This document shows, piece after piece, positions 20,398 through 44,033 of a DNA stretch of 44,081 bases. This DNA is from Magnetovibrio sp. (lineage in GTDB: Bacteria; Pseudomonadota; Alphaproteobacteria; Rhodospirillales; Magnetovibrionaceae): NCBI RefSeq assembly GCF_036568125.1, contig NZ_DATCTF010000006.1:1-44081 (forward strand), written 5' to 3'. The first letter of the stretch is position 1. Each line of letters begins with the position of its first letter. The notes beneath the pieces are model-generated. The model searched no databases. It was not told where the DNA came from and worked only from the letters and a program-made list of their open reading frames with translations. The translations under genes and the position numbers were made by a program.

Positions 20398-20715
20398 TTA
20401 TTGCGGAGCCTTTGCCGCGGTTTCCGCATCCCAATTTTCGCCTTTTACGACATCGTCTTTTGACGTCACCGGGGATTTCCCATCATATGCGAAATCGGCG
20501 TTGATCTGAATATAGGCGGCCCACTGCTCGGGCACTTCGTCATCGATAAAGATCGCTTCGGCTGGACAGGCGCGCACGCAGGCGTCGCAGTCGATGCATT
20601 CGTCAGGGTTGATATACAGCATATCGTCGCCTTCGTAGATGCAGTCCACGGGGCAGACTTCGACACAATCGCCGTACTTGCACTTGACGCAAGGCTCACA
20701 AATTACATACGTCAT
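20398..20715 (-). CDS. fdxA: FdxA-type 7Fe ferredoxin ([3Fe-4S][4Fe-4S])
   Basis: A 105-residue ferredoxin close to the Azotobacter FdI family in length and pattern. Cysteines at 9, 17, 21 and 50 should bind the [3Fe-4S] cluster and 25, 40, 43 and 46 the [4Fe-4S] cluster ([17 protein letters not shown], then [12 protein letters not shown]); C12 matches the free cysteine of FdI. It carries low-potential electrons in the cytoplasm. It sits 26 bp behind a radical SAM gene in the same operon, so it probably feeds electrons to radical SAM clusters, and perhaps to the RfbH-like dehydrase. FdxA genes are usually found in housekeeping contexts, so a copy inside a sugar island is notable. No strong ribosome site. 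Confidence 0.92.
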
Positions 20716-20741
20716 GATCAGTCGTCTTTATCGGTTGAGGT

Positions 20742-22238
20742 CTATGGATTGGCGCCTTTATAGACGAAATGGTCGGTCGGCAGTTCGTTGTCGTTTTTGA
20801 ACTCGACCCCAATCTCGCCTTCCTTAAATTGGGCCAGCAGATCGTGATATTCTTCTTCGTTCATGCTTTCTTGGCCCTTGGCGATTTTGTTGGGCACCGT
20901 CTTTTCCAGGAATTCCTTAATCGGGGCGGTGGCGCGCCACTCTTCGTACAACTCCCACATGCCATGCTTTTTGCACAGTTCACGGACCCGTTCGTCGCTC
21001 AAGATCAAAATCGGCACGCGACAGCGCAAGAACGCTTCGAGCTGGGCGAGGCTCTTTTCCTCGCGAGAGAACTCGGCGGAATCGAACATGCCGTCGTCGG
21101 GTAGTTTTTCATAGCGGCCTTGGAAGTTTGGAATATACCCGTCTTCGATTTCGCCCCGTTCGACGAAGTAGTCGTATGCGGGCGTACCGCGAAACGGCGT
21201 GAAGATCAGCCACTGCACGATCCGCGGCTGATCGAACTGCAACACCCATTCGATGGAGCGACGGTGCGCTTCGATGGTGTCGCCGGGCAGGCCGATGACC
21301 ATGTTCATCCACGGCGTGATGCCGGCCTTTTGGATCATGCGGATGGCGGTGGCGATGGTGTCGAGCTTTTCACCCTTGCGTAATTTTCGGAACACTTCCG
21401 GGTCGCCCGATTCAATGCCCACCGCCAGAGTTTCGACGCCGGTTTGTTTGAGTAGGTCGAGAAATTCTTCATCGATGTAATCGGCGCGTACATTGAAGAC
21501 GCTGACCTGATAGGGATAGCCGCGACGCAGATATTCCTTGAGGAAGTCCTTGGCGTGTTCCAGGTCTTGGGTGAAGGCATCGTCGATGATCGAGATCATC
21601 TTGCATTTGGGATGGTTCACCGCGATGCGGTCCAGTTCGTCCCAAAATGCCGTGTCCAGCGAGCGGCCGCGCCAGCGGCTGCCAAAAACCTTGGTGGCGG
21701 CGCAGAACGTGCAGTTATAATGACAGCCGCGCGACACGAACAACGGATAATCGACCAGGTTTTCACTGTTGATCATGGCGGAAAAAGTTGGTTCGTTGAA
21801 CACTTCGCTGCGGCCGAGACGCAAGACCTTTTCTTCGCTGTCGAGGATGTCTTGGAAGCGTCCGTCGGCTTCGCCAATCACGACCTTGGTGATGCGCTCG
21901 TCTTGTTCGAGAATATCCCAAAAGGCGATCGCATGTGGTCCGCCGACCCAAATCGGAATGCCCATCTCATGTGCGGTGTTGATGGCGGCCTGAACGCGCG
22001 GCATGGCCCATTCGTGGGACACAGCGGAAATGCCCAGCAGGTCGGGTTTGGTTTCTTTGAGCAGATCAATGAACGCAGTTTCTTCCTCGCCAACGGCAGG
22101 CGGGTTGAAATGGTGGTCCGCGATGGTGACGTGGTGACCGGCGTCGATGATGGTGGTCGCCAAAATGGCGAGGCCGATGGTTGGCAATTCTCCCCTGGTG
22201 CTGTCGTAGACACCGGGTTTCCACAGCAAAACATTCAT
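20742..22238 (-). CDS. B12-binding-type radical SAM enzyme
   Basis: A 498-residue protein with an N-terminal cobalamin-binding-type Rossmann domain (~1-140; LPTIGLAILATTIIDAGHHV, PDLLGISAVSHEW, IPIWVGGPHAI) and a radical SAM barrel carrying SRGCHYNCTFCAA, with C172, C176 and C179 binding the [4Fe-4S]-SAM cluster. Further blocks, VFNVRADYIDEEFLDLLKQT and GVETLAVGIESGDPEVFRKL, are typical of the barrel. The classical DxHxxG cobalamin motif is not evident (DHHFNPPAVG stands near the place), so B12 binding is uncertain. Relatives methylate unactivated carbons or rearrange substrates; the substrate here is unknown but a sugar or its lipid/nucleotide form is likely from context. The next gene downstream is fdxA. 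Confidence 0.85.
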   Translation of the reverse strand: MNVLLWKPGVYDSTRGELPTIGLAILATTIIDAGHHVTIADHHFNPPAVGEEETAFIDLLKETKPDLLGISAVSHEWAMPRVQAAINTAHEMGIPIWVGGPHAIAFWDILEQDERITKVVIGEADGRFQDILDSEEKVLRLGRSEVFNEPTFSAMINSENLVDYPLFVSRGCHYNCTFCAATKVFGSRWRGRSLDTAFWDELDRIAVNHPKCKMISIIDDAFTQDLEHAKDFLKEYLRRGYPYQVSVFNVRADYIDEEFLDLLKQTGVETLAVGIESGDPEVFRKLRKGEKLDTIATAIRMIQKAGITPWMNMVIGLPGDTIEAHRRSIEWVLQFDQPRIVQWLIFTPFRGTPAYDYFVERGEIEDGYIPNFQGRYEKLPDDGMFDSAEFSREEKSLAQLEAFLRCRVPILILSDERVRELCKKHGMWELYEEWRATAPIKEFLEKTVPNKIAKGQESMNEEEYHDLLAQFKEGEIGVEFKNDNELPTDHFVYKGANP

Positions 22239-22427: not shown

Positions 22428-22937
22428 TTAAGCAGGAAACAGAGGGCCATATATGCCTCTTTGTTCGGATATGAAATTATCAGGGAGGGTTGTATGCCAA
22501 GCCCACTGCCCGTTGGTGGGGGATTGAGGGTCATATTTCAGTGTATCTTTGAGAGGTGACGTTAGTCTGCATGCAAACAAGTGGGAAATAAAATGACCAC
22601 GCGTCTGTCGTGTCGGATTGATACATTGCGTCACGAGGCACGGCATCTCGTCGTGCTCGACGGTAGCGTGCAGTTCAGCATGTGACACGGCATGTATTCT
22701 GTCGTGAAACGTTTCTTTGAAACGAACGATGCCACCTGGAATGTGCCAGCCGGGGCCGTAGAATTCATCGGATCTCCAGGTCAGCAAAATCTCACCGCGT
22801 TCATTTTTGACAAGCAAATCGACGTTAACCATAGGGGTCAAACGACTGACCAATTGAAATACATCTTCGCCCAATCCCTGATGGGGATCGGTAATATGTG
22901 CGTCTATGACATGGATTGCGTTTTGGAGATCGGGCAT
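22428..22937 (-). CDS. NUDIX hydrolase, GDP-mannose mannosyl hydrolase-like
   Basis: From the ATG at 22937 the product is 169 residues (MPDLQNAIHVIDA...). That start has GGGAG about ten bases upstream; an upstream in-frame ATG at 23027 would overlap the previous gene. The sequence MVNVDLLVKNERGEILLTWR followed by GPGWHIPGGIVRFKETFHDR matches GDP-mannose mannosyl hydrolase (Gmm), including a Nudix box in which the canonical R-E-x-x-E-E is replaced by A-V-S-H-A-E-L, as Gmm also departs from it (R-L-T-M-A-E-L). Gmm hydrolyses GDP-mannose or GDP-glucose to the free sugar and GDP. Here it may control the pool of a GDP-sugar or clear a by-product. It lies between two radical SAM genes on the same strand. 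Confidence 0.75.
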   Translation of the reverse strand: MPDLQNAIHVIDAHITDPHQGLGEDVFQLVSRLTPMVNVDLLVKNERGEILLTWRSDEFYGPGWHIPGGIVRFKETFHDRIHAVSHAELHATVEHDEMPCLVTQCINPTRQTRGHFISHLFACRLTSPLKDTLKYDPQSPTNGQWAWHTTLPDNFISEQRGIYGPLFPA

Positions 22938-22993
22938 ATGATCTCGCTCCCAAGTATTTATGTGTGAAATGACGATGCGCCCACGCTCTACGG

Positions 22994-24703
22994 CTATGCG
23001 ACAGAGGCTTTTTCTGGTTCCAGCCAAACCTGGAGGTGGGTGTTTAGGTCATGGTTGTATGGGGAAATGTTGAACTTATCGAAGGCATTTTTCCACACCG
23101 GGTCGTTTTCGTACGCATGAATGGCAACTTGCTGATATTTTTTGGCTTTCTCAAGATCGCCAAGCTGCTCATAGCACATGCTGGCGTAATGATATGCTAG
23201 GCCGTGATCGTCTTTAGCACGGATCGCGGTTTCAAAACCTTTGAGGGCCAGTTCATACTCACCGAGTTTGAAATCAATGTTGTGGATGAAGTTCACATCC
23301 AAGTTAATGTCGTAGGAAATTTCTTGGATGTACTGCGCAGTGAAGTCTTCGGTTTCGACCACGGCCTTTCGGAAATCGCAACCGATGTCGGCAGCGTTGA
23401 TGTAATTTTTTTCAACGCAAATGTCGTGCATTTCCGCACCCACCAGCGGCGTGGCCACAACGATGATTTTCCAGTTGGCGTTGAGTTTTCTGAGAAACTG
23501 GCGGGAATCTTCGATGTCTTTTTTTGTTTCGCCAGGCATGCCGATGAGAATATTGACGTTGGTATAGATGCCAAGTTCACGGCAATCGTCAGCAACCCGT
23601 TCGGCGATGGAAAGCTTCAATGGTTTGCGCATGATTTCTTTCAAAACTCGTGCGCTTCCCGATTCCACGGGCAGAACCAGTTGGTCTGCACCGGCGCTTT
23701 TGAGAACCTTAAGCATGTCTTTGTCCAGGGCGTACAGGGTCAGGCCGTTCTGGAACACAGCCTTGACGCCGAGGTCGGCGACATAACGGGCAATTTCTTT
23801 GGCGCGTTCCGTGTCGGCCATGAAGTGATCGTCCTGAAAGACGAAGATTTTGGCGCCATACTGATCCCTCAGGCGTAGAAGATCATCTTTGACCCGGGGC
23901 ATGCTGTAATAGCGCATGGACCGGCCGTGTACCTTATGTGAAGCGCAGAACGTGCAGCGGAATGGGCAACCGCGCGACGTCATAATATGGAAGTTGTCGA
24001 CTTTATCCTTGATCGAGCCATAGGCCATGATCGCAGGGTTGGCGCCGTATTTTTCCATTTTACAAATGTCATAGTCGTAAAACGGAATTTCATCCAAATC
24101 TTCGATGAACTCATGTCCAAAAATGGCATTCTCGTCGATTTTTTTACGCGTAATCCAACTGGAATGCTTGTCCAACAAAGCGTAACGGTCTTCGGCATCG
24201 ATCAGTTTGGCAAAAGGCAATTCACCTTCGCCGTAGCACACGGCATCAAAGTCATCGGTGGCGTTAAACAGATACGCATACATGCTTGTGGGAACGCTGC
24301 CGCCGGCGAGCATGAGTGCATCGGGGAAGACTTTGCGACAGCATGCCGCGATGTCGAGGATGTTGAAATACGATGACGAAAAGAGCGCGGAAAGGGCAAT
24401 GATATCGGGTTCGACCGCCAGCTGATTGCGCAGATATTCTTCATAATACTCCATGGGCGAAGCATGCGAGAACGTATCGATGTCGTTGAGTTCGATGTTG
24501 AAATCGAGCAGTTCGGTTTCAACATCGGTTTTGCAATACTGCTTGATGTAAGCGCTTAAGGATAAAGCCCCCAACGGCATGTCGGTCACCAAACTGCCGT
24601 ATAATTTGCCGTCTTTTTTTCTGACCTGTTTAGAGGTGCTGCGGGGCGCGAGAAAATCGTCAAAAGGAATATGAGGGGGGATGATGAAAAGTATTTTTGT
24701 CAT
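22994..24703 (-). CDS. B12-binding-type radical SAM enzyme with TPR-like C-terminus
   Basis: The 569-residue protein starts MTKILFIIPPHIPFDDFLAP, with a B12-binding-type region (~1-170; DMPLGALSLSAYIKQY, PDIIALSALFSSSYF, ALMLAGGSVPTSMYA). The radical SAM motif is TSRGCPFRCTFCASHKVHGR, with C246, C250 and C253. The barrel continues through DQLVLPVESGSARVLKEIMR and NVNILIGMPGETKKDIED. The last ~90 residues (DFKLGEYELALKGFETAIRA, then YHYASMCYEQLGDLEKAKKY) are TPR-like helices, unusual for the family and a possible docking site. It heads the minus-strand operon that includes NUDIX, the second radical SAM gene, fdxA, the acyltransferase, the methyltransferase and DUF4910. AAGGG lies about nine bases before the ATG. 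Reaction unknown. Confidence 0.84.
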   Translation of the reverse strand: MTKILFIIPPHIPFDDFLAPRSTSKQVRKKDGKLYGSLVTDMPLGALSLSAYIKQYCKTDVETELLDFNIELNDIDTFSHASPMEYYEEYLRNQLAVEPDIIALSALFSSSYFNILDIAACCRKVFPDALMLAGGSVPTSMYAYLFNATDDFDAVCYGEGELPFAKLIDAEDRYALLDKHSSWITRKKIDENAIFGHEFIEDLDEIPFYDYDICKMEKYGANPAIMAYGSIKDKVDNFHIMTSRGCPFRCTFCASHKVHGRSMRYYSMPRVKDDLLRLRDQYGAKIFVFQDDHFMADTERAKEIARYVADLGVKAVFQNGLTLYALDKDMLKVLKSAGADQLVLPVESGSARVLKEIMRKPLKLSIAERVADDCRELGIYTNVNILIGMPGETKKDIEDSRQFLRKLNANWKIIVVATPLVGAEMHDICVEKNYINAADIGCDFRKAVVETEDFTAQYIQEISYDINLDVNFIHNIDFKLGEYELALKGFETAIRAKDDHGLAYHYASMCYEQLGDLEKAKKYQQVAIHAYENDPVWKNAFDKFNISPYNHDLNTHLQVWLEPEKASVA

Positions 24704-25082: not shown

Positions 25083-26183
25083 ATGAGTGATACAGACATG
25101 GCGGCGGTTGTTCAGCCTAGAATCTACTCCGCCCCCAAAGTGCGGCTTGAGGATCAGGTTCCCTTGAAAACGCCGTTTTCGGCTCATATCGATGTGTCCA
25201 GCCTGTGTAACTTCAAATGCAGCTTTTGTTTTCAAGCCGACAATGCGGCGATGAAACAGGCGAACCTCAAAAGAGGTATGATGCCGGTGGATTTGTTCAA
25301 AAAGATCGTCGACGATCTTGGCGAATTCGATGACAAATTGAAGAAAATCAAAATTGGTAATCACGGAGAGCCAACAATGCATCCGGATCTTCCGGAGATG
25401 ATCGCATACGCCCGTAACAAAGGCGTCGCCGAAACGATTGAGCTGTTCACCAACGCTTCCAAGCTTACACCTGAATTAAACAAAGCCATCGCCGACGCAG
25501 GTCTGCAGCGGATCAACATATCCTTGGAAGGCCTGACATCCGAACGCTACATGCAGGTCGCTGGCGTGCGTCAGGACATGGATGAGTTGATCAATAACAT
25601 CGCTCATTTGTACAGCGTGCGGGGCGATTGCAAGATGTACATAAAAATAGCCGACCGAACCAGCTCGCTGGATAAGGACGATCATCGCATTCATGTTCTC
25701 AGTGAACAGGAACGTGAATATTTTTACGCGACGTTCGGAAATATTTGCGACGAAATCTACATCGAAAAAATTGTCCCGCAGTGGGCCGAGACCCAGGCAG
25801 ACAAGCAAAATGAAGTCGACGAAACGGGGATGTACGATCAAAAAATAAAAAAATACAAAGAAATATGTCCCTTCGTCTTTATGTATCTGCATTTTAACTG
25901 CGATGGCACGACTAGCCCCTGTACCTTGGATTGGCCGCGCAAAGTCGTGATCGGCAACGTCAACACGCAAAGTGCTAAGGAAATCTGGGAAGGTGATGCC
26001 CTTCGTCAATTGCGCGTGGCGATGCTGAAAGACGCGCGTCACAAGATCAATTTCTGCAACAATTGTTCGGCCCCGATGGTCTGTGTCGACGAAGACCTCG
26101 ACCCGTACAAGGCGGACGTATTGAAAAAGATGGGCGTGCCCGATGACGAAACGCTGGAAAACAACCCTTGGGTAACTGAATAA
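25083..26183 (+). CDS. Radical SAM/SPASM-like enzyme
   Basis: A 366-residue protein. The SAM-cluster motif is SSLCNFKCSFC with C42, C46 and C49; IGNHGEPTMHPDLPEMI (about 91-107) supplies the G-E-P contact to SAM methionine. The C-terminus has six cysteines, C262, C273, C280, C325, C328 and C334, in a SPASM-like arrangement that would bind auxiliary Fe-S clusters. SPASM enzymes modify peptides, tRNA or sugars (for example dehydrogenation of aminoglycoside hydroxyls). Substrate unknown; the sugar-gene setting favours a hydroxyl or carbon of a nucleotide sugar. It is the first gene of a five-gene plus-strand operon; the following epimerase gene starts 1 bp after its stop. Confidence 0.85.
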   Translation: MSDTDMAAVVQPRIYSAPKVRLEDQVPLKTPFSAHIDVSSLCNFKCSFCFQADNAAMKQANLKRGMMPVDLFKKIVDDLGEFDDKLKKIKIGNHGEPTMHPDLPEMIAYARNKGVAETIELFTNASKLTPELNKAIADAGLQRINISLEGLTSERYMQVAGVRQDMDELINNIAHLYSVRGDCKMYIKIADRTSSLDKDDHRIHVLSEQEREYFYATFGNICDEIYIEKIVPQWAETQADKQNEVDETGMYDQKIKKYKEICPFVFMYLHFNCDGTTSPCTLDWPRKVVIGNVNTQSAKEIWEGDALRQLRVAMLKDARHKINFCNNCSAPMVCVDEDLDPYKADVLKKMGVPDDETLENNPWVTE

Positions 26184-26184
26184 G

Positions 26185-27054
26185 ATGGCGAATATGAAAA
26201 TTTTGGTTTTAGGCTCAAACGGTTTTATCGGACGTAACATCGTCGAGTATCTGGAGCCGAAAGACTATGTCGTCCTATCGCCAAAACGACAAGAGCTCAA
26301 CCTGTTGGACACCGAAGGCGTCGAGGCATATATCAAGGAACATTGCCCGGATGTTGTCGTTTTCAGCGCTGTAAACATTCAATCTCTGTCCGATAATTTG
26401 CAGATGTATTTCAATGTCGAGCGCTGCTCGGATCACTTCGGAAAGATGATCACCATCGGATCGGGCGCGGAATACGATATGCGCCATTATTATCCGATGA
26501 TGACCGAAGACTATTTTGGCCACCACGTGCCGTGCGATACCTACGGTCTGTCGAAGTATGTCATGTCCAATGACATCGAGAAGAAGCCCCGTAACATCGT
26601 GAACTTGAGGGTTCTGGGCATCTTTGGAAAGTACGAAGATTACACACGACGGTTTATCTCGAACAACATCTGTAAATCACTCGCCGGCTTGGGCGTGACG
26701 ATCAATCAAGACATGAAATTCGATTTCATCTACGTGCAGGATTTCATCAAGATCCTCGAGATGTTTTTCACCAAAGAGACCAAGTATAGAAATTACAATA
26801 TTTGCACCGCCCAGCCTTTGGGGTTGCTGGAGATCGCCAATGTAATTTGCGAGGTTCTTCCCCACGATGAAACCGTGACCGTCAAAGAAGAGGGGCAAAA
26901 GCCAGAATACTCCGCAGACAACGCCCGATTCAGGGCAGAATTCGGTGATTTTTCTTTTACCGATATCAAGGATTCCGTGCGGGAACTTTACCAGTGGTAC
27001 GCAAACCATCCCGATCTCGAGGAATACTGCGCCAAGCTCAGAGAGGCCGAGTAA
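26185..27054 (+). CDS. NAD-dependent epimerase/dehydratase, copy A
   Basis: A 289-residue extended SDR enzyme. The Rossmann motif is MKILVLGSNGFIGRNIVEYL near the N-terminus; the S/T-containing strand is MITIGSGAEYD, and the catalytic Y-x-x-x-K is TYGLSKYVMS. Nucleotide-sugar epimerases, 4,6-dehydratases and reductases of this family act on UDP-, dTDP-, CDP- or GDP-sugars. The protein is clearly related along its length to the product of the gene at 34270 (for example NLRVLGIFGKYEDYTRRFIS against TLRIFGIFGKHEDYRYKFIS). The first ATG is 26185, but ATG 26194 gives the conventional MKIL start and matches the paralog. It stands between two radical SAM genes in a tight operon. Confidence 0.82.
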   Translation: MANMKILVLGSNGFIGRNIVEYLEPKDYVVLSPKRQELNLLDTEGVEAYIKEHCPDVVVFSAVNIQSLSDNLQMYFNVERCSDHFGKMITIGSGAEYDMRHYYPMMTEDYFGHHVPCDTYGLSKYVMSNDIEKKPRNIVNLRVLGIFGKYEDYTRRFISNNICKSLAGLGVTINQDMKFDFIYVQDFIKILEMFFTKETKYRNYNICTAQPLGLLEIANVICEVLPHDETVTVKEEGQKPEYSADNARFRAEFGDFSFTDIKDSVRELYQWYANHPDLEEYCAKLREAE

Positions 27055-27060
27055 TCCGAC

Positions 27061-28338
27061 ATGGCGAAGTCAAAAAACAGCCTGCTCGACGCGCTAAATG
27101 CTCGCCCCATCGCCATTTGGGGAGCGCGGATGACGGGGATGGGCTTTCTGCGCTTCTCAAAATCACATGACTTGAATGTCGTCAGCTTCGTCGACTCAGA
27201 TCCGGCGTTTGATGGCAAAACGATCAATGGCATACCTGTTCGGCATCCAGACGCGCTGAAGGATCTGCAGCGTGGACATCCCGGCTTGGCAATTGTGATC
27301 GCGGTTTCGATCAAAGAAGACGAGATCATCAAGGCGTTGCAGGGCATGAATTTTTCAGGTGAAGATTTCGTCCTGTATTCCGACTATTGCGATTCATTTT
27401 ATACCATCGACATTGTCGGGACCTGCAATCTGGTGTGCCCGTCTTGCGCACATAGCATAGACGGAGAAAAGTATCCCCGGGGGATGATGTCGTTTGATAA
27501 TTTCAAACTGGTCTTGGACAAAATCAAGAGCGAGGTTGAAGTCGTCACCCATGTCAGCTTGTACAGTTGGGGCGAGCCGTTTTTGCATCCCGACTTGCCT
27601 AAGATCATCAAGCATCTGCACAAGAACGGCATCGCTGCCGCCGTATCGAGCAACCTATCCATTAAATCGGCGGATCAAATTCGGGATGTCATTCAGGCCC
27701 GGCCGGAGTACTTGAAAGTCTCCATCTCCGGATACTATCCCGACGTTTACGATCTGACCCATACGGGCGGCGATATCAATTTGGTGAAATCGAATTTGTA
27801 TCGTGTGAAGCATTACATCGACAAATACAATGCAGGCACATTCGTCGACGTAAACTACCACCTCTACACAAATAACAATCACAAAAACCTGAACAAGATG
27901 AAGGAGCTTTGTGATGAACTGGGCTTTACGTTGTCCGCCACTTACGCGCTTGTCATGCCGCTGGAACGGTGCCTGGATCACTGTGACGGTATAGAAGATC
28001 CCCAAACCAAAGCGCTCGAAGATATTCTCTTGGTCAATATCGATGAAGGACTGGAAGTTACAAAAGACTTTCGTGCAAACACCTGCCCCTTCAAAGACAA
28101 CCAAATGAACATCAATTGGGATTTGAAGGTTCCGGTGTGCTGTGTCGTTTTCAACAGAGAGGGCACAATCGTCGCAGACAATTTTCTCGATAGTTCGTTG
28201 GTTGAAATCAACAAAAGCAAAGATGAGGCGGAAATCTGTGCGAAGTGCATGGGCTATGGGTTGCCCGCCTATAACATGGGGTTCAATCAAGGCGGCTGGA
28301 AAGCTGTTGCCTCTACAAAAACTTCTTCCGACCAATAA
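27061..28338 (+). CDS. Radical SAM enzyme with N-terminal Rossmann domain
   Basis: A 425-residue fusion. The first ~105 residues form a Rossmann-like domain (RPIAIWGARMTGMGFLRFSK, then VVSFVDSDPAFDGKTINGIP) resembling the domain at the C-terminus of NovU/TylC3-type C-methyltransferases. The radical SAM part has GTCNLVCPSCAHSIDG with C122, C126 and C129, and SLYSWGEPFLHPDLPKI contacting SAM. C-terminal cysteines C342, C360, C361, C393 and C396 suggest a SPASM/twitch auxiliary cluster. The N-terminal domain may hold a nucleotide sugar or act as a partner-binding module; this is inference. It is six bases after the epimerase gene and 18 bp ahead of a C-methyltransferase with a similar domain. 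Confidence 0.83.
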   Translation: MAKSKNSLLDALNARPIAIWGARMTGMGFLRFSKSHDLNVVSFVDSDPAFDGKTINGIPVRHPDALKDLQRGHPGLAIVIAVSIKEDEIIKALQGMNFSGEDFVLYSDYCDSFYTIDIVGTCNLVCPSCAHSIDGEKYPRGMMSFDNFKLVLDKIKSEVEVVTHVSLYSWGEPFLHPDLPKIIKHLHKNGIAAAVSSNLSIKSADQIRDVIQARPEYLKVSISGYYPDVYDLTHTGGDINLVKSNLYRVKHYIDKYNAGTFVDVNYHLYTNNNHKNLNKMKELCDELGFTLSATYALVMPLERCLDHCDGIEDPQTKALEDILLVNIDEGLEVTKDFRANTCPFKDNQMNINWDLKVPVCCVVFNREGTIVADNFLDSSLVEINKSKDEAEICAKCMGYGLPAYNMGFNQGGWKAVASTKTSSDQ

Positions 28339-32016: not shown

Positions 32017-32052
32017 GAGCAATGTGGCTGGTCCGTGCGTTACCTTGGGAGG

Positions 32053-36170: not shown

Positions 36171-36537
36171 GGAATACCAATCGGACAGTTAATAAAGACC
36201 ATCAATGATGGGGGACAGGGGTGTGTGGTGTTCATTCCATCAAAACCCAACCAACCGCTTTGATGTCCTGTACGGCAAGGATTTTGCCACTCGAGCGTCC
36301 TTGTGGATAGCTATATTTCCGTGCGACCTCCATCGTTTTCCGTCTCAGAGCCAGGGTGCGTTTACCCATCGTAAATGCACTGCTAAACTTTACCACCTAA
36401 AGGGCGTCTTTTTCTTGAAATTTCATGAAATCTAAGCACTTAAGGTAAGAAAATTTGTTCGTCTCATGTGTTACGCATATCTCGCAATTGCGGACGCATC
36501 GTTGACGATCGTTTGTTTTGGAGCCAGAACAGCCACC
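36171..36537. promoter_or_regulatory. Divergent intergenic region, FkbM to RfbH-like gene
   Basis: This 367-bp region holds no convincing protein; an open frame at 36205-36435 has no ribosome site and odd composition. It should carry promoters for both flanking genes. A short inverted repeat (GAAATTTCATGAAATC) lies at about 36416-36432. The plus-strand frame upstream of 36538 is open back to 36466, but family similarity starts only after 36538. Confidence 0.4.
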
Positions 36538-37914
36538 ATGACGCATTCATCCCCGAAAAAAGAACAAATCCGCGCTCAAATTGCGGCCTTGGTCGAAGAG
36601 TATGCCGCAGAGGAATTCAAGCAAAAGGCTTTCGAGCCCGGGGCGACCGCGGTCCCGCCTTCGGGTAAGTTGTTGGGGGCGCAAGAGCTAAAAAATCTCG
36701 TGGATGCTTCTCTTGATGCGTGGCTGACGACAGGACGTTTCAACGCAGAATTCGAAGCGAACCTCGCCAAGTTTTTGGGTGTAAAGCACGTGATGACGAC
36801 CAATTCGGGGTCGTCGGCAAATTTGTTGGCTTTGGCGGCGCTGACATCGCCCAATCTTGGCGACAAAGCATTGAAGCCGGGCGATGAGGTGATCTCGGTT
36901 GCGGCGGGCTTTCCGACCACCGTCAATCCGTTGTTACAGTATGGACTGGTCCCGGTGTTCGTCGATATCGACATTCCCACCTACAACATCGACCCAACGG
37001 CCATCGAGGCGGCGATCAGCGACAAAACCCGCGCCATCATGCTTGCGCACACCCTGGGCAATCCATTCGATCTTGAAACCGTGATGCGGCTTGCGCACAA
37101 GCATGACCTGTGGGTGATCGAGGACACCTGCGATGCCTTGGGCTCCACATACACGCCAAGTGCGCCATTGGAACGCAATCGAGACAAGATCATCGCGGCG
37201 GATAAGCCGCGCCTAGTCGGTACATTCGGCGATGTCGCGACGTTGAGCTTTTATCCCGCTCACCATATCACCATGGGCGAAGGCGGCGCCGTTTACACCA
37301 ACAGCGGAAAGCTCAAGCCGATCATCGAATCGTTTCGCGACTGGGGCCGCGATTGCTTTTGCGCACCGGGGCGCGACAACACCTGCGGCAAACGTTTTTG
37401 CTGGCAGCTGGGCAACATGCCCGAAGGCTATGATCACAAATACATATACAGCCACGCCGGATACAATATGAAGATCACCGACATGCAGGCTGCATGCGGT
37501 GTCGCGCAATTGGACCGGATCGACGATTTCGTCGCGGCGCGCAAAGCCAATTTCGCTTATCTGTACGCCGGCTTGAAATGCTGTGAAGAGTTTTTGATTT
37601 TGCCCGAAGCGACGCCGAACTCAAGCCCGTCTTGGTTTGGCTTCACGCTCACATTGCGCGATAGCGCGCCGCTCAGCCGCATCGAATTGTTGCGAAAACT
37701 CGAAGAGCGCAAGATCGGTACGCGATTGCTGTTCGCCGGCAACATTACATGTCAGCCCTATATGGCGGGGCGCAATTTCCGGGTGAGCGGATCGCTGGAG
37801 AATACCGATTTGGTGATGAACAATACGTTCTGGGTCGGGGTTCAGCCCGCCCTGACGAAAGAGATGTTGGATTACCTGATAGATACCATCAAGGGCAGCT
37901 TCAACGTCGCCTAA
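36538..37914 (+). CDS. rfbH: RfbH/DdhC-like CDP-4-keto-6-deoxyglucose-3-dehydrase
   Basis: A 458-residue protein of the PLP-dependent, [2Fe-2S]-containing 3-dehydrase family (E1 of CDP-3,6-dideoxyhexose pathways). The Schiff-base lysine of aminotransferases is a histidine here (H242 in [15 protein letters not shown]), the hallmark of these dehydrases. Cysteines C198, C273, C275 and C283 follow the C-xn-C-x-C-x7-C pattern that binds the [2Fe-2S] cluster ([12 protein letters not shown]); the first spacing is longer than in the Yersinia enzyme. It removes the C3 hydroxyl of CDP-6-deoxy-4-ketohexose and needs a reductase, DdhD. RfbF, RfbG and DdhD are not in this window. The product would be the substrate for a YerE-type TPP enzyme. 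The ATG at 36538 begins [15 protein letters not shown]. Confidence 0.9.
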
Positions 37915-37935
37915 CAAAGTCTGGATACGGCCTTT

Positions 37936-38934
37936 TCATTTCATTAAATTGGGGTTTAGCGCTTTGCGAATTTGATAATTCTTTCTGCGAAACCACTCGA
38001 TTGTCTTGATCGCTACGGCACACAGGCCTTTTGGCATGAAGGTCAAAATCCATACATACATCATTGTCAAATCAGACGTCACTTCGCGCAGTTTTTCGCC
38101 GTACTTCTTATAGGATTCCCTGTCTAAAATACCTTGTGCGCGGATACCCAGTAAGTATCGCCATCTCAAGATTCCGGTTTTCTGTTGCAGCGCTCGCCGT
38201 GCGATGGTTTTACTTGCGTCACTGTAGCTGTCTGGCAACAAAGCGATCACGTTCGGCCATGTTTCGAAGATATTGACGAAAAAATACGATCCCCAGCCCG
38301 GTTTTCGAACTGGCGATTTCAAGGATACGATGATCGCATCCGGGGCCCAATATAATCGAAACCCAGGTTTGGTGATGTAATCGAACACAACGCCGACATG
38401 GCCAAATCCGGTGTATCGGTATTTTTCAAAATGTCCATTTTGAATCGCATTTCTGTGAAAGATCGTGCAGCCAAGACATGAAATAATCCACCCAAGTTTT
38501 TCCAGCGTTTCGGTCTTGTCGGTAAATACTTTTTCCTCGACTTCTCTTTTGCGCCCGACCAGGTCGGTGACGATAAAGTCATAATGCGTACCGTCATCTG
38601 GCAGGATGTCCAAAATCATATCGAGGGTTTTTGGGGGAATCTCGAATCCGTCGCCGGTGACCCAAGTGTACTCGGCCTCAGACAAGCTCAAGGCTTTCTG
38701 GACGTTTTCATCGACGTCGACGGTTTTCTCGAACGTTGAGCACACGATGTACGGGTATTGCTGTTGCCACTTTTCAACAACCTCAAGCGTATTGTCGGAA
38801 GAGCCATTGTTAGAAATGTAGATGGCAATATCGTGCTCGCGCACCACAGGGACGTACGTTTGCAAAAAGAAATCAAGAATGTCCGCCCTGTTGTAGGTCG
38901 GCACGGCAATGGCAAGTTTTTTATTGGCCGGCAT
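37936..38934 (-). CDS. Family 2 glycosyltransferase
   Basis: A 332-residue GT-A protein. The N-terminus is KLAIAVPTYNRADILDFFLQ, followed by AIYISNNGSSDNTLEVVEKW, both typical of GT2. The DxD equivalent is VTGDGFEIP (about 93-101) and the acceptor side includes DYITKPGFRLYWAPDAIIVS. The C-terminus has a basic, amphipathic stretch but no certain membrane helix. GT2 enzymes use UDP-, GDP- or CDP-sugars. Donor and acceptor cannot be assigned, but it is the only GT2 in the window and may attach a sugar in the glycan. It converges with the RfbH-like gene and lies 94 bp downstream of the ATP-grasp gene, perhaps in its operon. No good ribosome site. Confidence 0.84.
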   Translation of the reverse strand: MPANKKLAIAVPTYNRADILDFFLQTYVPVVREHDIAIYISNNGSSDNTLEVVEKWQQQYPYIVCSTFEKTVDVDENVQKALSLSEAEYTWVTGDGFEIPPKTLDMILDILPDDGTHYDFIVTDLVGRKREVEEKVFTDKTETLEKLGWIISCLGCTIFHRNAIQNGHFEKYRYTGFGHVGVVFDYITKPGFRLYWAPDAIIVSLKSPVRKPGWGSYFFVNIFETWPNVIALLPDSYSDASKTIARRALQQKTGILRWRYLLGIRAQGILDRESYKKYGEKLREVTSDLTMMYVWILTFMPKGLCAVAIKTIEWFRRKNYQIRKALNPNLMK

Positions 38935-39028: not shown

Positions 39029-40249
39029 TTAAGTATCCGTCACTACCTGAATATGGTTCAGCGCCTGCTGTGTCCGGCTTAAGGCCTGCGCGTGGGTGTC
39101 GCCGGTCGCGATGACAACAGCAGCCGTGCATCCGGAATGGATCGGGCGGATGATTTCATCGCCGGGCTTCACCCAACAATCGACGAATTCCACGCCCTTG
39201 ACATCGGCGGCTTGCTCAATGCCGCTGACCGATGTGACGCGCCCCGGCGGCACGAACAAATAACGCTGCACCACCGGACGTTGGAATTTGGGTTTAAGGT
39301 CTTGCACGTCGATGCGGTCACCCATGGCTAACTTGATGGCGGCTTCGACTGTGCTGACGCCGGTGTTGAGCGGGATTTCATGGGTGCAGAAAAATCCGCC
39401 GCTCAAACGCGCGGCCAGTTCGATCACGTAGGCTTTGCCATCCGAATAGACCATGTCGCCTTTGACGATGCCGTTGCGCACGCCCAGGCTGTCGGCGGCG
39501 TCTTGCACCACCCGGCAAATGGCGGCTTGGGCCTCGGCATCGAGAAAGCTCGGCAGGTCGCCGCCGTTCTCGATCATATAAGGCGCGTAGGTGTCGAGCA
39601 GTTCGTAATTGCGGTCCGAAAAACCCGGAGTGTAGGCCACGCCATCGACCACCACGCTTTCGGTGCTGACCTGTGGGCCGCTCATATAGCTTTCCGCCAT
39701 CACCCGCCCGGTGGGCGATTGTTCTTTCGATGTGGCAAAGGCCCAATCCAGATCGATGTCTTGGGTCAAACGCAACACCCCGCGCGAGCCGCGGCTGTCG
39801 ATGGGTTTGATCACCAAGGGCAGGCCGCGCTCCGCGACGATGGCGGCAAGGTGCGCCGCGTCGCTCACTTCGTCAAACCACGGAATGGCGACGCCGTCGT
39901 TTCGGAACTTCTGTTTCATCGCCAATTTGTTGATGGCGAGGTTCGCCGTGGCGCTGCCGATGGTCGGCAAACCCAAGGCCTCCGCTACGCCCGCAACGGT
40001 GTGCGGCACGTCGGTCGCCATGCACATGACGCCATCCAGCAAGCGTTGTTCACGATGAAATTTGACCGCCTCCGCCGTGGTTTGCTCGACACTGTAGGTG
40101 TCGGCGATCAGTTTGGCGTCGGCGTAGGCAAAACCCGGCGCATTCGGATTGCGGTCGCTGACGGCGACGAACAGGCCCATGTCCTTGGCCATGCGGATGC
40201 CGGGCACGGCTTGCACGCCGCCGCCAACCATGAGCAAGGCGCGGCTCAA
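39029..40249 (-). CDS. ATP-grasp ligase-like protein
   Basis: A 406-residue ATP-grasp protein. The N-terminal Rossmann-like domain is MSRALLMVGGGVQAVPGIRM; the ATP-binding core has GLPLVIKPIDSRGSRGVLRL (about 144-163), and the metal-binding end is in YVIELAARLSGGFFCTHEIP. Family members ligate a carboxylate to an amine, thiol or another carboxylate (D-Ala ligase, PurK, CarB, biotin carboxylase). Those found in sugar islands may attach an amino acid or carboxylic acid to an amino sugar. Start and stop overlap the SDR gene by 4 bp, so expression is coupled. It is in the operon with the split transketolase; the substrate is unknown. Confidence 0.83.
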   Translation of the reverse strand: MSRALLMVGGGVQAVPGIRMAKDMGLFVAVSDRNPNAPGFAYADAKLIADTYSVEQTTAEAVKFHREQRLLDGVMCMATDVPHTVAGVAEALGLPTIGSATANLAINKLAMKQKFRNDGVAIPWFDEVSDAAHLAAIVAERGLPLVIKPIDSRGSRGVLRLTQDIDLDWAFATSKEQSPTGRVMAESYMSGPQVSTESVVVDGVAYTPGFSDRNYELLDTYAPYMIENGGDLPSFLDAEAQAAICRVVQDAADSLGVRNGIVKGDMVYSDGKAYVIELAARLSGGFFCTHEIPLNTGVSTVEAAIKLAMGDRIDVQDLKPKFQRPVVQRYLFVPPGRVTSVSGIEQAADVKGVEFVDCWVKPGDEIIRPIHSGCTAAVVIATGDTHAQALSRTQQALNHIQVVTDT

Positions 40250-40992
40250 AAGTAGAGCCCCCCGTTGACATTGATGGTCTGCGCCGTGATGTATGACGAT
40301 TTGTCGGATGCGAGATACACCACCGCATCGGCGACTTCATCGGGTGTGCCGAAGCGCTTCATCACCACGTTTTTGGCAGCCTCTTGCACCGCTGCGGATT
40401 GCATTCCGGCGGCGGCCATTTCGGATTCGATCAAGCCCGCCGCGACGGTGTTGCAGCGAATGTTGTCAGGTGCGCCGAAGCGTGCGATCACCTGCCCCAA
40501 AGAGATCAGGCCCGCCTTGGACGCCGCGTAATGCGCGGTACGCGGGCCACCGTATTGGCCGCTGACGGAACCGATGTTGACGATCGATCCGCCGCCGCGT
40601 TTTTTGAGGAACGCCAAGACCTCTTGTGCGCAGATGAACGGACCCTTGAGGTTCACGCCCAAGATTTCGTCCCAGTCTTCATCGGTGATCTGATCGAAAT
40701 CGGTGGGATTGTTGATGCCCGCATTGTTGACCAAGATGTCGATGCCACCGAGATCGCGTTCCGCCTGGTCATAGGCCGCGCGCATGGCGGCGCGGTCGCG
40801 CACATCGGCTTGAACGGCGATGGCTTTGCGTCCTTGGGCGGCGATGTCTGCACACACGGCTTGGGCCATGTCGGCATTGCTTTGATAGCTCAACGCCACA
40901 TCTGCACCGGCAGCAGCCAAGCCTTTGGCGATGGCGGCACCGATCCCGCGACTGGCGCCGGTGACAAAGGCGATTTTACCCGCAAGCAGCAT
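40246..40992 (-). CDS. Short-chain dehydrogenase/reductase (FabG-like)
   Basis: A 248-residue classical SDR. The NAD(P) motif is TGASRGIGAAIAKGLAAAG (residues 11-29), the NNAG motif is DILVNNAGINNP, and catalytic residues are S (IVNIGSVSGQ) and Y-x-x-x-K (HYAASKAGL). The C-terminus ends in the usual GGLYF. FabG-like sequences catalyse ketone/alcohol interconversion; in a sugar operon a keto-group reduction is expected. It overlaps the downstream ATP-grasp gene by 4 bp and starts 9 bp after the transketolase C-subunit gene. Confidence 0.88.
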   Translation of the reverse strand: MLLAGKIAFVTGASRGIGAAIAKGLAAAGADVALSYQSNADMAQAVCADIAAQGRKAIAVQADVRDRAAMRAAYDQAERDLGGIDILVNNAGINNPTDFDQITDEDWDEILGVNLKGPFICAQEVLAFLKKRGGGSIVNIGSVSGQYGGPRTAHYAASKAGLISLGQVIARFGAPDNIRCNTVAAGLIESEMAAAGMQSAAVQEAAKNVVMKRFGTPDEVADAVVYLASDKSSYITAQTINVNGGLYF

Positions 40993-41001
40993 GACGTGTC
41001 C

Positions 41002-41961
41002 TTACTTTCGTTTGATCGCGCGACGTGCGGCATCGGCGATATGCGTGATGCCGAGATTGTAGTGTTGCACCAGTTCGTCCGGTTCGCCCGATTGGCCGAA
41101 GCGGTCGTTGACGGCGATGAATTCAACCGGGCAGGGGCTGCGTTGGACGAGCGATTCTGCCACCGCACCGCCAAGTCCGCCGAACATGTTGTGATCTTCC
41201 GCCGTCACCATGCAGCCGGTTTCGATCGCGCAGCGTTGCAGCAGGTCGTGATCCAGCGGCTTGATGGTCGCCATGTTGACGACCCGCGCCGAAATGCCTT
41301 CGCCGTTCAAGAGTGTGGCGGCATCGAGTGAGCGGGCAACCTGAACACCGCAGGCGACGATGGTCACGTCGGTGCCGTCGCGCACGATTTGCCCCTTGCC
41401 GATTTTAAAGGTGTGCTCAGAACCGAAAATGCGCGGCGTCGGGCTGCGCCCGGTGCGCATGTAGACGGGACCGACGTGTTCGATCATGGCGCGGGTCGCC
41501 AACTCCGTTTCGATTTGATCGGCGGGACTGATCACGGTCATGTTGGGAATGGCACGAAAGGCGGCCAAGTCTTCCAAGCATTGCGCCGACGCACCATCCG
41601 GTCCGACATCCAGGCCCGGATGCGAGGCGACAATCTTGACGTTGCGGTTGGCGTAAGCCACCGACAGACGCGCTTGTTCCAGGGCGCGCAAGGCGAACAC
41701 CGCGAACGTGGTAACCACCGGGATCAACCCCGTCGCGGCCATGCCGCCGGCCGCCGCGACCATGTTTTGTTCGGCGATGCCGAATTGGTAGAAGCGGTGA
41801 CCATGGGCGGTGCGAAAGTTATGCGCACCGGTGCCGCCCGCGACGTCGGCGTCGAGTACCACCAGATTGGGAAATTCGTCAGCCAAGCCAACGAGCGCTT
41901 TGCCGAAGGCTTCACGCAGGGAATCGCCGCTGCTGCCGATCAGTTGCGGTGCGTTGCTCAT
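41002..41961 (-). CDS. Transketolase-like protein, C-terminal (pyrimidine/TK-C) subunit
   Basis: A 319-residue protein with the pyrimidine-binding and C-terminal domains of transketolase/DXS. The glutamate needed for ThDP activation is in FYQFGIAEQNMVAAAGGMAA; KIVASHPGLDVGPDGASAQC and MTVISPADQIETELATRAMI follow the family order. The C-terminal domain has TVEDHN-like VTAEDHNMFGGLGGAVAESL. It should form a dimer/tetramer with the N-subunit encoded just upstream (overlap of 4 bp). Split transketolases occur in many bacteria, often in antibiotic, sugar or cofactor clusters. Together they transfer a two-carbon ketol or related unit; with keto-sugars this could install a branch. Confidence 0.88.
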   Translation of the reverse strand: MSNAPQLIGSSGDSLREAFGKALVGLADEFPNLVVLDADVAGGTGAHNFRTAHGHRFYQFGIAEQNMVAAAGGMAATGLIPVVTTFAVFALRALEQARLSVAYANRNVKIVASHPGLDVGPDGASAQCLEDLAAFRAIPNMTVISPADQIETELATRAMIEHVGPVYMRTGRSPTPRIFGSEHTFKIGKGQIVRDGTDVTIVACGVQVARSLDAATLLNGEGISARVVNMATIKPLDHDLLQRCAIETGCMVTAEDHNMFGGLGGAVAESLVQRSPCPVEFIAVNDRFGQSGEPDELVQHYNLGITHIADAARRAIKRK

Positions 41962-42842
41962 TGCGTGTGCCCCCCATGGATCGTGCCGTCGAGCCAGCCG
42001 GGCACGTCGCTTTGCGCTACGCCCAAGTCGATCAGGGATTTTTCGGTGTCGTCCAAGCTCATGGTCACGCTGCCGTGCCAGGTGGGGTAGTTCTCCATGA
42101 AGCTCACGCCTTTGCCCTTGAGCGTGTGGGCTAGGATCAACGTCGGTTTGCCGGTGGTGCGTTTGGCTTCGGCGACCGCGGCCTCGATGGCGGCGAAGTC
42201 GTGGCCGTCGATTTCAACCACATGCCAGCCAAAAGCGCGCCATTTGTCGGCCAGCGGTTCCAAGCCGATGATGTTTTCGTTCAAGTCGTCGCTTTGCATT
42301 TTGTTGTAATCGAGAATGGCGGTGAGCTTGTCGAGTTTATAATGCGCTGCGCATTGAGCCGCTTCCCAAACTTCGCCTTCTTGCATTTCACCATCACCGA
42401 GCATCACGTAGACGCGGCCGCTGCCGCCTTGGTGACGGATGCCCAACGCCATGCCGAGCGCGGCGGAAAAACCCTGGCCGAGCGATCCGGTGCTGGTTTC
42501 CACATGGGGCAATGCGCCGACGTGGGGATGGCCTTGCATGGTTGAGCCCAATTTGCGCAGTTGCAGCGGATCGGTCGGTGAAATCTGGCCTTTGACAGCC
42601 AAAGCGGCATAGAGCGCCGGGCAGGCATGGCCCTTGGACAAAATGAAGCGGTTGCGTGTCAAATCGCCGTCGCGCGGTTCTTCATCGCCGATTTCAGCGC
42701 TGTACAGATACGCCAGAAGATCGGCGGCAGAAAGCGCCCCGCCCGGATGGCCGGAGGTCGCGACATAAATGGACGCGATGGAATGGCAACGGATCAAACG
42801 CGCGGTTTCGCGGAGGTCCGGATGAGAGGGTGAGGTCGTCAT
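41958..42842 (-). CDS. Transketolase-like protein, N-terminal (PP-binding) subunit
   Basis: A ~294-residue protein with the ThDP diphosphate-binding domain. GHPGGALSAADLLAYLY and FILSKGHACPALYAAL match transketolase; the ThDP motif is MLGDGEMQEG followed by N in LDYNKMQS. The last part (VVEIDGHDFAAIEAAVAEAK, then LILAHTLKGKGVSFMENYP) is also family-typical. A longer form beginning at a TTG (42860) is possible, but ATG 42842 is favoured. It is the first gene of a tktN-tktC-SDR-ATP-grasp operon, divergent from radical SAM gene 42999 with 156 bp between starts. Confidence 0.88.
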   Translation of the reverse strand: MTTSPSHPDLRETARLIRCHSIASIYVATSGHPGGALSAADLLAYLYSAEIGDEEPRDGDLTRNRFILSKGHACPALYAALAVKGQISPTDPLQLRKLGSTMQGHPHVGALPHVETSTGSLGQGFSAALGMALGIRHQGGSGRVYVMLGDGEMQEGEVWEAAQCAAHYKLDKLTAILDYNKMQSDDLNENIIGLEPLADKWRAFGWHVVEIDGHDFAAIEAAVAEAKRTTGKPTLILAHTLKGKGVSFMENYPTWHGSVTMSLDDTEKSLIDLGVAQSDVPGWLDGTIHGGHTQ

Positions 42843-42998
42843 ATGGTGCTCATCATTCAAAAATTCTGTTCGGATGAAGTGCTGTATTTCATGCGTCGTC
42901 TGATTGGCTTTCGTGCCAGTCCCGACCTATGATAAGCTCTTCCCCGCAAGGTGGAAAGCGCCTTTGAGCAGGTAAATGCCCAGAAAGGGTAGTGTGGC

Positions 42999-44033
42999 AT
43001 GAAATCCATTAACAACATGTTTGCGGCTTACGAGCTGCGGGAACTGGCGGCTTTTACGCCGAAAAACCGCCAAGAGTACCTGGATATCAACCAAACGGCC
43101 TACAATCTCAAACTCAACACCCGTGTTCCCACCACCGTACATATCGAACCCACCAACAAATGCAACCAGACCTGCGTCATGTGCGTGCATCCCGACATGC
43201 AGCGCCCGGTGACGTTTATCGATGACGACATCGCGCTGAAGGCCATCGACCAGTGCGCCGAATTCGGCGTATATGCGGTGCACTTTTTCTTTTTCGGCGA
43301 GCCGTTCCTCAACCGCAAAACGGTCGACTATATCCGCATCGCCAAGCAAAAGGGCATCCCGCTGGTGTCCGTCACCACCAACTTCACGTCCATCAAGGAC
43401 GCCGAGATTGAGCGATTGGTGGTCGATGGGTTGGACTCGATCCACATTTCATTCGAAGGACTGAGCCGCGAAAAGTACGAAGCCATTCGCGGCACCGACA
43501 GTTACGAAAGGGTCCTGCGCAACATCGAGCGTCTGTATCACTACAAAGCCAAGCACAAATCGGAAAAGCCCTGGGTGTCGTTGACCTATGTGCGCACCGA
43601 AGAAACGGATGAGCAGATCGAAACCTTTCAAAGTACCTGGAAGGACAAGGTCAATTCCATCCACATCAGCCCACAGTTCGATTATCTCGGCCGCGCGCCC
43701 ATCCGCGAAACGCAAGGCGATCCCAACAGTGAAAGCATTCTCGATCGCAGTTCCGACGATCGCTTGGCATGCCGACAGTTGTGGTTGCGCTTGGTGGTGT
43801 TGAGCAACGGCGAACTGGTGCCGTGCAGCCAAAACATCGACGGCGAATTGTCGTTGGGCAACATTCGCGACATGACCATCGCCGAAGCCTGGCAAGGCGA
43901 CAAGATGTTGGACCTGCGCGCGCAGCACATCACCAACCGCATCCCCAGCGATTGCGTGTGCGACAAATGCATCGATTGGGATTGGAGCGGCCGGGTCGTC
44001 GACCGTCCCAAGCTCAAGGATGACGACGCATGA
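42999..44033 (+). CDS. Radical SAM/SPASM-like enzyme, copy near right edge
   Basis: A 344-residue protein. The SAM-cluster motif is EPTNKCNQTCVMCVHPDMQR with C55, C59 and C62; HFFFFGEPFLNRKTVDYI supplies the GEP contact. C-terminal cysteines C258, C276, C319, C321 and C324 form a SPASM-like set (NGELVPCSQNIDGELSLGNI is the usual motif before the last cluster). The N-terminal ~45 residues are helical. AAAGGG lies 9-10 bases before the ATG. The stop overlaps the next gene by 4 bp (ATGA), so it is co-translated with a gene that leaves the window. Substrate unknown. Confidence 0.86.
   Translation: MKSINNMFAAYELRELAAFTPKNRQEYLDINQTAYNLKLNTRVPTTVHIEPTNKCNQTCVMCVHPDMQRPVTFIDDDIALKAIDQCAEFGVYAVHFFFFGEPFLNRKTVDYIRIAKQKGIPLVSVTTNFTSIKDAEIERLVVDGLDSIHISFEGLSREKYEAIRGTDSYERVLRNIERLYHYKAKHKSEKPWVSLTYVRTEETDEQIETFQSTWKDKVNSIHISPQFDYLGRAPIRETQGDPNSESILDRSSDDRLACRQLWLRLVVLSNGELVPCSQNIDGELSLGNIRDMTIAEAWQGDKMLDLRAQHITNRIPSDCVCDKCIDWDWSGRVVDRPKLKDDDA

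Follow-up and report, generated by a model that had tools for sequence, protein, structure and literature searches.

The 44,081-nucleotide stretch of DNA analysed here (the window; contig C6, positions 1-44081, of a 3.39 Mb draft genome of Magnetovibrio sp.) lies at a flagellin glycosylation island, within which a 14-gene cassette (22428-38934) probably specifies a branched sugar that radical S-adenosylmethionine (radical SAM) enzymes tailor and that goes onto flagellin in this genome. The island is bounded on the left (11878-15148) by a Maf flagellin glycosyltransferase (11878..13824, +; PF20157, 173 bits) and a flagellin (13991..15148, +; PF00669 and PF00700), and on the right (C6:45290-51040) by a cytidylyltransferase/PseG-like fusion, NeuB, a polysaccharide-type dehydratase, FlbT and FlaF. 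The PseG-like half of the fusion at 45290 scores under its cut-off (121 versus 154 bits). The joint presence of flagellin, Maf and nonulosonic-acid-type genes identifies the region as a flagellin glycosylation island. A composition count of the flagellin gives 60 Ser or Thr among 160 central residues and no Cys.

The genome holds 26 matches to the radical SAM family PF04055, 25 of them over the cut-off of 29.5 bits, and five lie within one 23.6 kb stretch of the window, where scatter would place 0.18 (Poisson P about 1.4e-6, for a stretch picked after the cluster had been seen). An earlier note on this DNA had recognized these five genes by their CxxxCxxC motifs and had ascribed a B12-binding domain to two and SPASM-like C-termini to three. 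All five, termed rSAM1 to rSAM5 in order of position, score over the cut-off and carry the motif in their translations, and PF02310 marks the B12-binding domain in the minus-strand genes rSAM1 and rSAM2, whose names in the note, 20742 and 22994, are their low-coordinate ends. The SPASM claim stands for rSAM3 (25083+) and rSAM5 (42999+), which match PF13186; for rSAM4 (27061+) that family was not reported at E 0.001, and a SPASM/twitch-like character is suggested by five cysteines near the C-terminus that do not vary among 18 aligned sequences (the window and 17 of 18 loci; L065 was omitted) and by SPASM/twitch-type fold matches of modest TM-score.

A scan of named genomes with an rSAM3 alignment was evaluated for the best 80 of 289 relatives, comprising 25 cassette loci and 55 controls, the latter being the upper part of the distant relatives. 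rSAM3 identity splits sharply, with at least 50% in the 25 loci and 35-40% in the 55. Marker genes were scored within the fetched flanks at no less than 28% identity and at least 40% coverage; open reading frames (ORFs) were called mechanically, and contig ends cut some loci (e.g., L066, L117 and L124), which lowers the counts in both groups. All six markers are present in 14 of the 25 cassette loci, five in 7, four in 2 and three in 2. The controls carry none (44/55), one (9/55), two (1/55) or three (1/55) of them, and never more.

Three adjacent genes are diagnostic for the cassette. rSAM3 (25083..26183, +) combines radical SAM (PF04055, 60.5 bits) and SPASM domains (PF13186, 50.5 bits), and its C-terminal part is similar to BtrN (45.8 bits). 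It is followed by a short-chain dehydrogenase/reductase (SDR) of the nucleoside diphosphate-sugar epimerase/dehydratase type (26185..27054, +; PF01370), found in 25/25 cassette loci versus 0/55 controls, and by rSAM4 (27061..28338, +; PF04055, 36.4 bits; 20/25 versus 0/55), a radical SAM protein with SPASM/twitch-like cysteines and, judged by eye, a Rossmann-like stretch at the N-terminus. The 50 Foldseek matches listed for the AlphaFold 2 model of rSAM4 (pLDDT 90) include anSME, BlsE, SuiB, EpeE, BtrN, viperin and DesII, with TMq values of 0.3-0.5 and 11-19% identity. Upstream lies rSAM2 (22994..24703, -; PF04055, 77.0 bits; PF02310, 41.5 bits), an optional member in which B12-binding and radical SAM domains precede a TPR-like tail; the nearest solved sequence is 6fd2, an apramycin-biosynthesis oxidoreductase (62.5 bits) that we take to be AprD4.

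The remainder of the cassette comprises genes for the assembly of a branched deoxysugar, and the RfbH-type dehydrase, the thiamine diphosphate (ThDP) enzyme and the C-methyltransferase described in the earlier note are all borne out by family matches. RfbH (36466..37914, +), the 3-dehydrase for cytidine diphosphate (CDP)-4-keto-6-deoxyglucose, matches the equivalog-level model NF011936 at 728 bits (cut-off 423) and recurs in 22/25 loci versus 10/55 controls, or in 18/25 versus 9/55 at an identity of 43% or more. The protein contains the motif SFYPAHH, the His of which presumably occupies the position of the aminotransferase Lys; RfbH needs an E3 reductase partner. The ThDP enzyme (29559..31352, +; TPP_enzyme N, M and C domains; 21/25 versus 3/55) aligns over its whole length with 8rph at 404 bits, compared to 228 bits for the best acetolactate synthase. 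The structure 8rph is JanthE, a YerE-like ligase according to the accessible part of PMC12188165, and by this homology the enzyme is predicted to be a YerE/JanthE-like carboligase. The sugar C-methyltransferase (28356..29504, +; PF13489 and PF08484, with PF08421 under its cut-off) is found in 24/25 versus 0/55 loci at 28% identity or more. An HpcH/HpaI-type aldolase candidate (32053..32838, -) recurs in 21/25 versus 1/55 loci. Its AlphaFold 2 model (pLDDT 94) retrieves HpcH/HpaI aldolases as top Foldseek matches (3qz6 at E 7.5e-8, HpaI, HpcH and YfaU; TMq about 0.5-0.6, 13-17% identity); a sequence search gave no match in the PDB. Residues E113 and D143 are invariant in 19/19 aligned sequences (the window and 18 of 19 loci; L066 was omitted), and in the HpcH/HpaI family these acidic residues are metal ligands.

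Accessory genes complete the unit. A NUDIX hydrolase (22428..23027, -; PF00293, 29.4 bits; 10/25 versus 0/55) has an uncertain TTG start and overlaps rSAM2, and a haloacid dehalogenase (HAD) phosphatase (31366..32022, -; PF13419) likewise occurs in 10/25 versus 0/55 loci. Two further SDRs (33026..34075, -, and 34144..35211, +; both PF01370) are each found in 12/25 versus 1/55, bringing the SDRs of the cassette to three, a family too generic to pick out a branch ketoreductase. An FkbM-type methyltransferase (35241..36170, -; TIGR01444, 97 bits, cut-off 38) is present in 10/25 versus 1/55 and a GT2 glycosyltransferase (37936..38934, -; PF00535) in 3/25 versus 0/55 at 28% identity or above. RfbF and RfbG are encoded outside the window, both on contig C11 (RfbG at 406 bits, cut-off 278; RfbF 62% identical to that of genome G033). 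Matches to both lie nearby in 16/25 cassette loci and to one of the two in 3 more; in G033 and in G653, a more distant alphaproteobacterium, RfbH adjoins matches to CDP-glucose 4,6-dehydratase and glucose-1-phosphate cytidylyltransferase.

BLAST comparison of the window proteins with relatives shows the 14 genes of 22428-38934 behaving as a unit. In Magnetovibrio blakemorei MV-1 (G004) a single contig carries the full set, with the HAD and HpcH-type genes about 11 kb from the rest; in G653 the full set falls inside 14272-29855 of a contig on which flagellin and Maf are also encoded, and genome G008 retains 11/14. The GC content of the cassette is 49.4%, compared to 55.6% (15332-22238) and 59.5% (39029-44033) alongside. 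Hosts include Rhodospirillales, Rhodocyclaceae, Azonexus fungiphilus, Magnetococcales, Hydrogenophilales, a metagenome-assembled genome (MAG) of Marinimicrobia, Rickettsiales, Pelagibacteraceae and Prochlorococcus. The core 22428-38934 is probably a horizontally mobile cassette, and we interpret it as an exchangeable insertion within the flagellin glycosylation island. rSAM3 was found at E <=1e-30 in 9/317 genomes of the order and in 4/385 drawn from the class, and rSAM4 by profile at E <=1e-25 in 7/398 genomes of the phylum, the own genome being counted each time. The distance matrices of six partners correlate with that of rSAM3 (r 0.54-0.83, every partner reaching the floor of 999 permutations, with no control for the species tree), a correlation part of which is accounted for by shared species history.

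The link to flagellin recurs in unrelated hosts. The test for PF00669 covered 23 cassette genomes (L066, L072 and L081 lay outside it, and G016 and G033, also searched, are not counted) and was positive in 15. Flagellin is encoded on the same contig, less than 20 kb from rSAM3 (10.7-19.5 kb), in 10 of these 15, namely in the window, in G653, in one Hydrogenophilales, in two Rickettsiales and in five genomes of betaproteobacterial type. The latter five (two Rhodocyclaceae, one assigned to Betaproteobacteria, one to Gammaproteobacteria, and Azonexus) are similarly spaced and do not count as independent. In Azonexus the cassette adjoins flagellin, FliD and FliK, and on one Rickettsiales contig several flagellins and FliD are followed by the cassette.

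We consider it probable that the cassette makes a C4-branched CDP-3,6-dideoxyhexose of the yersiniose/erwiniose type, that its radical SAM enzymes tailor this sugar, and that flagellin is where the sugar is used here. There is good support for the class of pathway, for the cassette and for its nearness to flagellin; the individual reactions, the order of substrates, the product and its attachment are what we infer from the gene families. RfbF, RfbG and RfbH catalyse the first steps to CDP-4-keto-3,6-dideoxyglucose. Accordingly arranged, the pathway would start with RfbF and RfbG, encoded elsewhere in the genome, which would yield CDP-4-keto-6-deoxyglucose, and RfbH would then remove the 3-hydroxyl group. 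The HpcH-type aldolase might join pyruvate and an aldehyde to a 4-hydroxy-2-oxo acid, from which the HAD phosphatase would possibly remove a phosphate. The YerE/JanthE-like enzyme would decarboxylate the acid and add the acyl carbanion to the C4 ketone, creating a tertiary-alcohol branch. According to the accessible part of PMC12247030, YerE uses activated acetaldehyde as the donor for CDP-3,6-dideoxy-4-keto-glucose; ErwE, and similarly MMAR_2332, favours longer, hydroxylated 2-oxo acids. Because of its modelled aldolase-like fold and conserved acidic residues, the HpcH-type protein could supply an acid of the ErwE/MMAR_2332 type. The branched sugar would subsequently be methylated, oxidised or reduced, epimerised or dehydrated by the C-methyltransferase, the SDRs, rSAM3 and rSAM4, with rSAM2 as an optional addition, and a glycosyltransferase or Maf might finally place it on flagellin or on a flagellin glycan.

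Several findings weigh against this assignment. The HpcH-type protein scores 23.4 bits against PF03328, and since the cut-off is 25 it is not filed as a family member; further down, its list of fold matches also includes pyruvate kinase chains. The gene is missing from 4/25 loci: in L079 it lies outside the flank that was fetched, a contig end truncates L077, L075 has a possible substitute, and in L078 no substitute was seen in the locus. RfbH matches reach only 30-33% in 4 of the 22 positive loci (L074, L078, L080 and L085, of which L078 and L080 are Pelagibacteraceae and L085 Prochlorococcus), L080 also has a ThDP enzyme of just 29% identity, and the weak RfbH matches may represent another aminotransferase-type enzyme, so that these four loci may make a different sugar. 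rSAM2 is not diagnostic (10/25 cassette loci versus 12/55 controls). The Maf/flagellin stretch (10-16 kb) itself has a low GC content (0.49-0.53), and hence GC alone does not mark an insert. Maf (PF20157) is found in only 5/23 cassette genomes, and the attachment route must therefore differ between lineages. Flagellin lies on another contig in 5/15 positive genomes (G004, G702, G704, G705 and G707), and a PF00669 match is absent from 8/23. One of the eight, G008, has a C-terminal piece of flagellin at a contig edge (97% over 64 residues). The seven others (G697 and G710-G715; assemblies of unstated completeness), namely a gammaproteobacterial single cell, two Pelagibacteraceae, the gammaproteobacterial MAG NP948 and three Prochlorococcus, gave no flagellin match and keep cassette genes, and therefore the sugar need not be specific for flagellin. 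The proposal of the earlier note, a flagellin sugar made by radical chemistry, consequently stands as a radical-tailored sugar pathway linked to flagellin, and not as one confined to it.

These seven assemblies also speak for an alternative, in which the same branched-sugar cassette feeds lipopolysaccharide (LPS), capsule or another surface glycan, and flagellin nearness reflects shared insertion hot spots between flagellar genes. YerE-like enzymes mainly serve cell-structure glycans such as LPS (review, accessible part of PMC12247030). Yet the close spacing in 10/15 flagellin-positive genomes extends across Magnetovibrio, G653, betaproteobacterial-type genomes, Hydrogenophilales and Rickettsiales, and the island in the window has flagellin/Maf on one side and FlbT/FlaF with nonulosonic-acid-type genes on the other. 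We regard this alternative as rather unlikely.

The SPASM-type enzymes might instead modify a peptide, or the flagellin chain itself, in the manner of ribosomally synthesised and post-translationally modified peptides (RiPPs), and anSME, SuiB, EpeE and other peptide-modifying enzymes are indeed among the best fold matches of rSAM4. The same list, however, contains BlsE, BtrN and DesII, whose substrates are sugars or nucleosides, and the constant partners of the cassette are sugar-nucleotide enzymes. No conserved small ORF emerged: the 1856 ORFs of 20-120 residues that lie outside assigned genes each had matches in three other loci at most (E <=1e-4), and 0 of the 19 small ORFs of the window matched any other locus. 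In the absence of a conserved precursor ORF, RiPP-like maturation was rejected as the principal explanation and appears very unlikely.

The earlier note had assigned all five radical SAM enzymes to a single pathway, and their position inside one 23.6 kb stretch of a flagellar locus favours that idea. Only rSAM2, rSAM3 and rSAM4 are part of the conserved cassette, however; rSAM1 and rSAM5 belong to a second, separable module that flanks it. On the left this module consists of a ferredoxin (20398..20715, -; PF12838), 79-80% identical in the relatives G016 and G029, where it adjoins rSAM1, and of rSAM1 itself (20742..22238, -; PF04055, 71.4 bits; PF02310, 55.6 bits). On the right it includes four genes (39029..42860, -) encoding an ATP-grasp ligase, an SDR and a split transketolase, whose halves 41002- and 41958- are the other ThDP-type genes anticipated in the note, followed by rSAM5 (42999..44033, +; PF04055, 74.4 bits; PF13186, 45.9 bits). 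The four genes are syntenic and 76-82% identical in the cassette-free genome G016, which is of the same family. There, the second module including rSAM1 and rSAM5 lies in one unbroken flagellar locus that extends from FlaF to flagellin, rSAM3 gave no match, and about 11.5 kb of other genes replace the cassette; G016 is 66% complete, and its contig nonetheless spans the cassette site. In the replacing segment (G016:C5:27980-39485; L168-L169), a further split transketolase pair and an SDR were matched, suggesting that this part of the flagellin island is a slot with exchangeable contents. G029 holds a fragment of the second module, in which rSAM1 and rSAM5 again recur together.

Conversely, the ferredoxin, ATP-grasp and split transketolase genes gave no match on the fetched contigs of G004, G008 and G653, where rSAM1 and rSAM5 had no matches except to other radical SAM genes; a whole-genome search of G004 and G008 (G653 was outside that sample) did not find either enzyme. 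In none of the 25 cassette loci is either of them the best match across half of its length. A single five-enzyme pathway was therefore rejected, the module with rSAM1 and rSAM5 being found in G016 without the cassette, and the view that all five make one sugar is highly improbable. The earlier note had named scattering of the five genes in related genomes as a ground for giving up its reading, and in part they are indeed unlinked: rSAM2 is in just 10/25 cassette loci, and rSAM1 and rSAM5 occur apart from the cassette.

A housekeeping role of the ThDP enzyme as acetolactate synthase, with an ordinary 3,6-dideoxyhexose as the product of the cluster, is scarcely credible: the nearest named NCBIfam models are acetolactate synthases, but the 25 of 52 models listed all fall under their cut-offs (310 versus 738 bits at best), JanthE is the far better match, and the gene recurs with RfbH and radical SAM genes.

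The branched-sugar pathway proposed here resembles YerE/ErwE-type pathways for yersiniose A, erwiniose and caryophyllose, in which the RfbF/RfbG/RfbH route is followed by a YerE-like ThDP ligase that adds the branch, and it may share a hydroxy-2-oxo acid donor with ErwE and MMAR_2332 (accessible part of PMC12247030). Unlike these systems, the cassette includes two conserved SPASM-type radical SAM enzymes, an optional B12-binding radical SAM enzyme and a C-methyltransferase, and it lies beside flagellin; the term "radical SAM" does not occur in the accessible part of PMC12247030 on YerE-like enzymes. With Maf/pseudaminic-acid flagellin islands, the locus shares the flagellin, Maf, nonulosonic-acid-type genes, FlbT and FlaF around the cassette, and it differs by the extra CDP-branched-sugar cassette, which is also found beside flagellin in genomes lacking a Maf match. 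Known sugar-acting radical SAM enzymes (BtrN, DesII, BlsE and AprD4) belong to antibiotic pathways. The C-terminus of rSAM3 is akin to BtrN, the fold of rSAM4 is near BlsE, BtrN and DesII, and rSAM2 is nearest to 6fd2; the low identity of rSAM4 to all 50 listed fold matches nevertheless sets it apart. Caryose and bradyrhizose are carbocyclic higher sugars, and a branched higher-carbon sugar could in principle be ring-closed by radical chemistry. The main text of the bradyrhizose paper, as far as accessible (PMC4743980), contains neither acetolactate nor RfbH nor radical; identity with caryose or bradyrhizose is weak, as this source offers no gene link.

Literature searches, which left subscription journals mostly outside, returned nothing on yersiniose with radical SAM or on radical SAM with O-antigen and CDP-glucose. 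Among the matches listed for flagellin glycosylation, radical SAM appeared only in a Rickettsia-genome paper, and those for radical SAM with branched sugars revealed no such pathway, judged by title. The marker trio rSAM3-SDR-rSAM4 sets off one clear subtype, which is tied to flagellin. If the reading is true, radical chemistry joins the known routes to flagellin sugars, and a sugar not yet described is to be expected on ocean bacteria of very high abundance. Two strains with this subtype can be grown, Magnetovibrio blakemorei MV-1 and Azonexus fungiphilus DSM 23841.

A bolder version is speculative, and we think it improbable: rSAM3 and rSAM4 would rebuild the carbon skeleton of the YerE-branched CDP-sugar into a higher-carbon or carbocyclic sugar new to date, e.g., through a ring between branch and hexose or a fused aldol-derived chain, and one mobile cassette would supply this sugar or close relatives to flagellin in proteobacteria that are motile and, in Pelagibacteraceae and Prochlorococcus, to surface glycans.

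Further observations concern relatives of the cassette genes. A viral carrier was considered and rejected: none of 16 viral-contig relatives of rSAM3 had matches to the SDR at 26185, rSAM4, the C-methyltransferase, the HpcH-type gene or RfbH (0/16), and one of them, L154, has a ThDP enzyme (37%). The broader rSAM3 subfamily at 35-40% identity (L086-L140) spans many phyla, with an rSAM2-like gene in 12/55 and an RfbH-like gene in 10/55, and possibly represents another sugar pathway. A second rSAM4 relative resides in the own genome (G000:C15:154285-155154, 203 bits), and three tandem relatives (299-307 bits) occur in a single genome of the same phylum (L175/L179, G745:C12:30603-34332).

Individual loci have distinctive neighbours. 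The Marinimicrobia cassette that lacks the HpcH-type gene (L075) carries dehydroquinate-synthase-like, FGGY-kinase-like and HMGL-like aldolase genes (2696-5906) between RfbH and rSAM3. In a gammaproteobacterial single cell, what we take from sequence to be a probable methylthioadenosine phosphorylase and an MtnA-like protein are encoded just upstream of RfbF (L063:2224-4708); enzymes of these types can also recycle 5'-deoxyadenosine, a by-product of radical SAM reactions. Spurious small ORFs just outside the cassette, near 1.6 kb in the betaproteobacterial-type loci L064, L065, L067 and L068, are presumably typical of a tRNA gene, and such a tRNA-like site is a possible insertion site. Within the island of the window, finally, 17344-18630 encodes a DUF4910/DUF2172 protein with a C-terminal winged helix, a 79% identical relative of which is found in the flagellin locus of G016.

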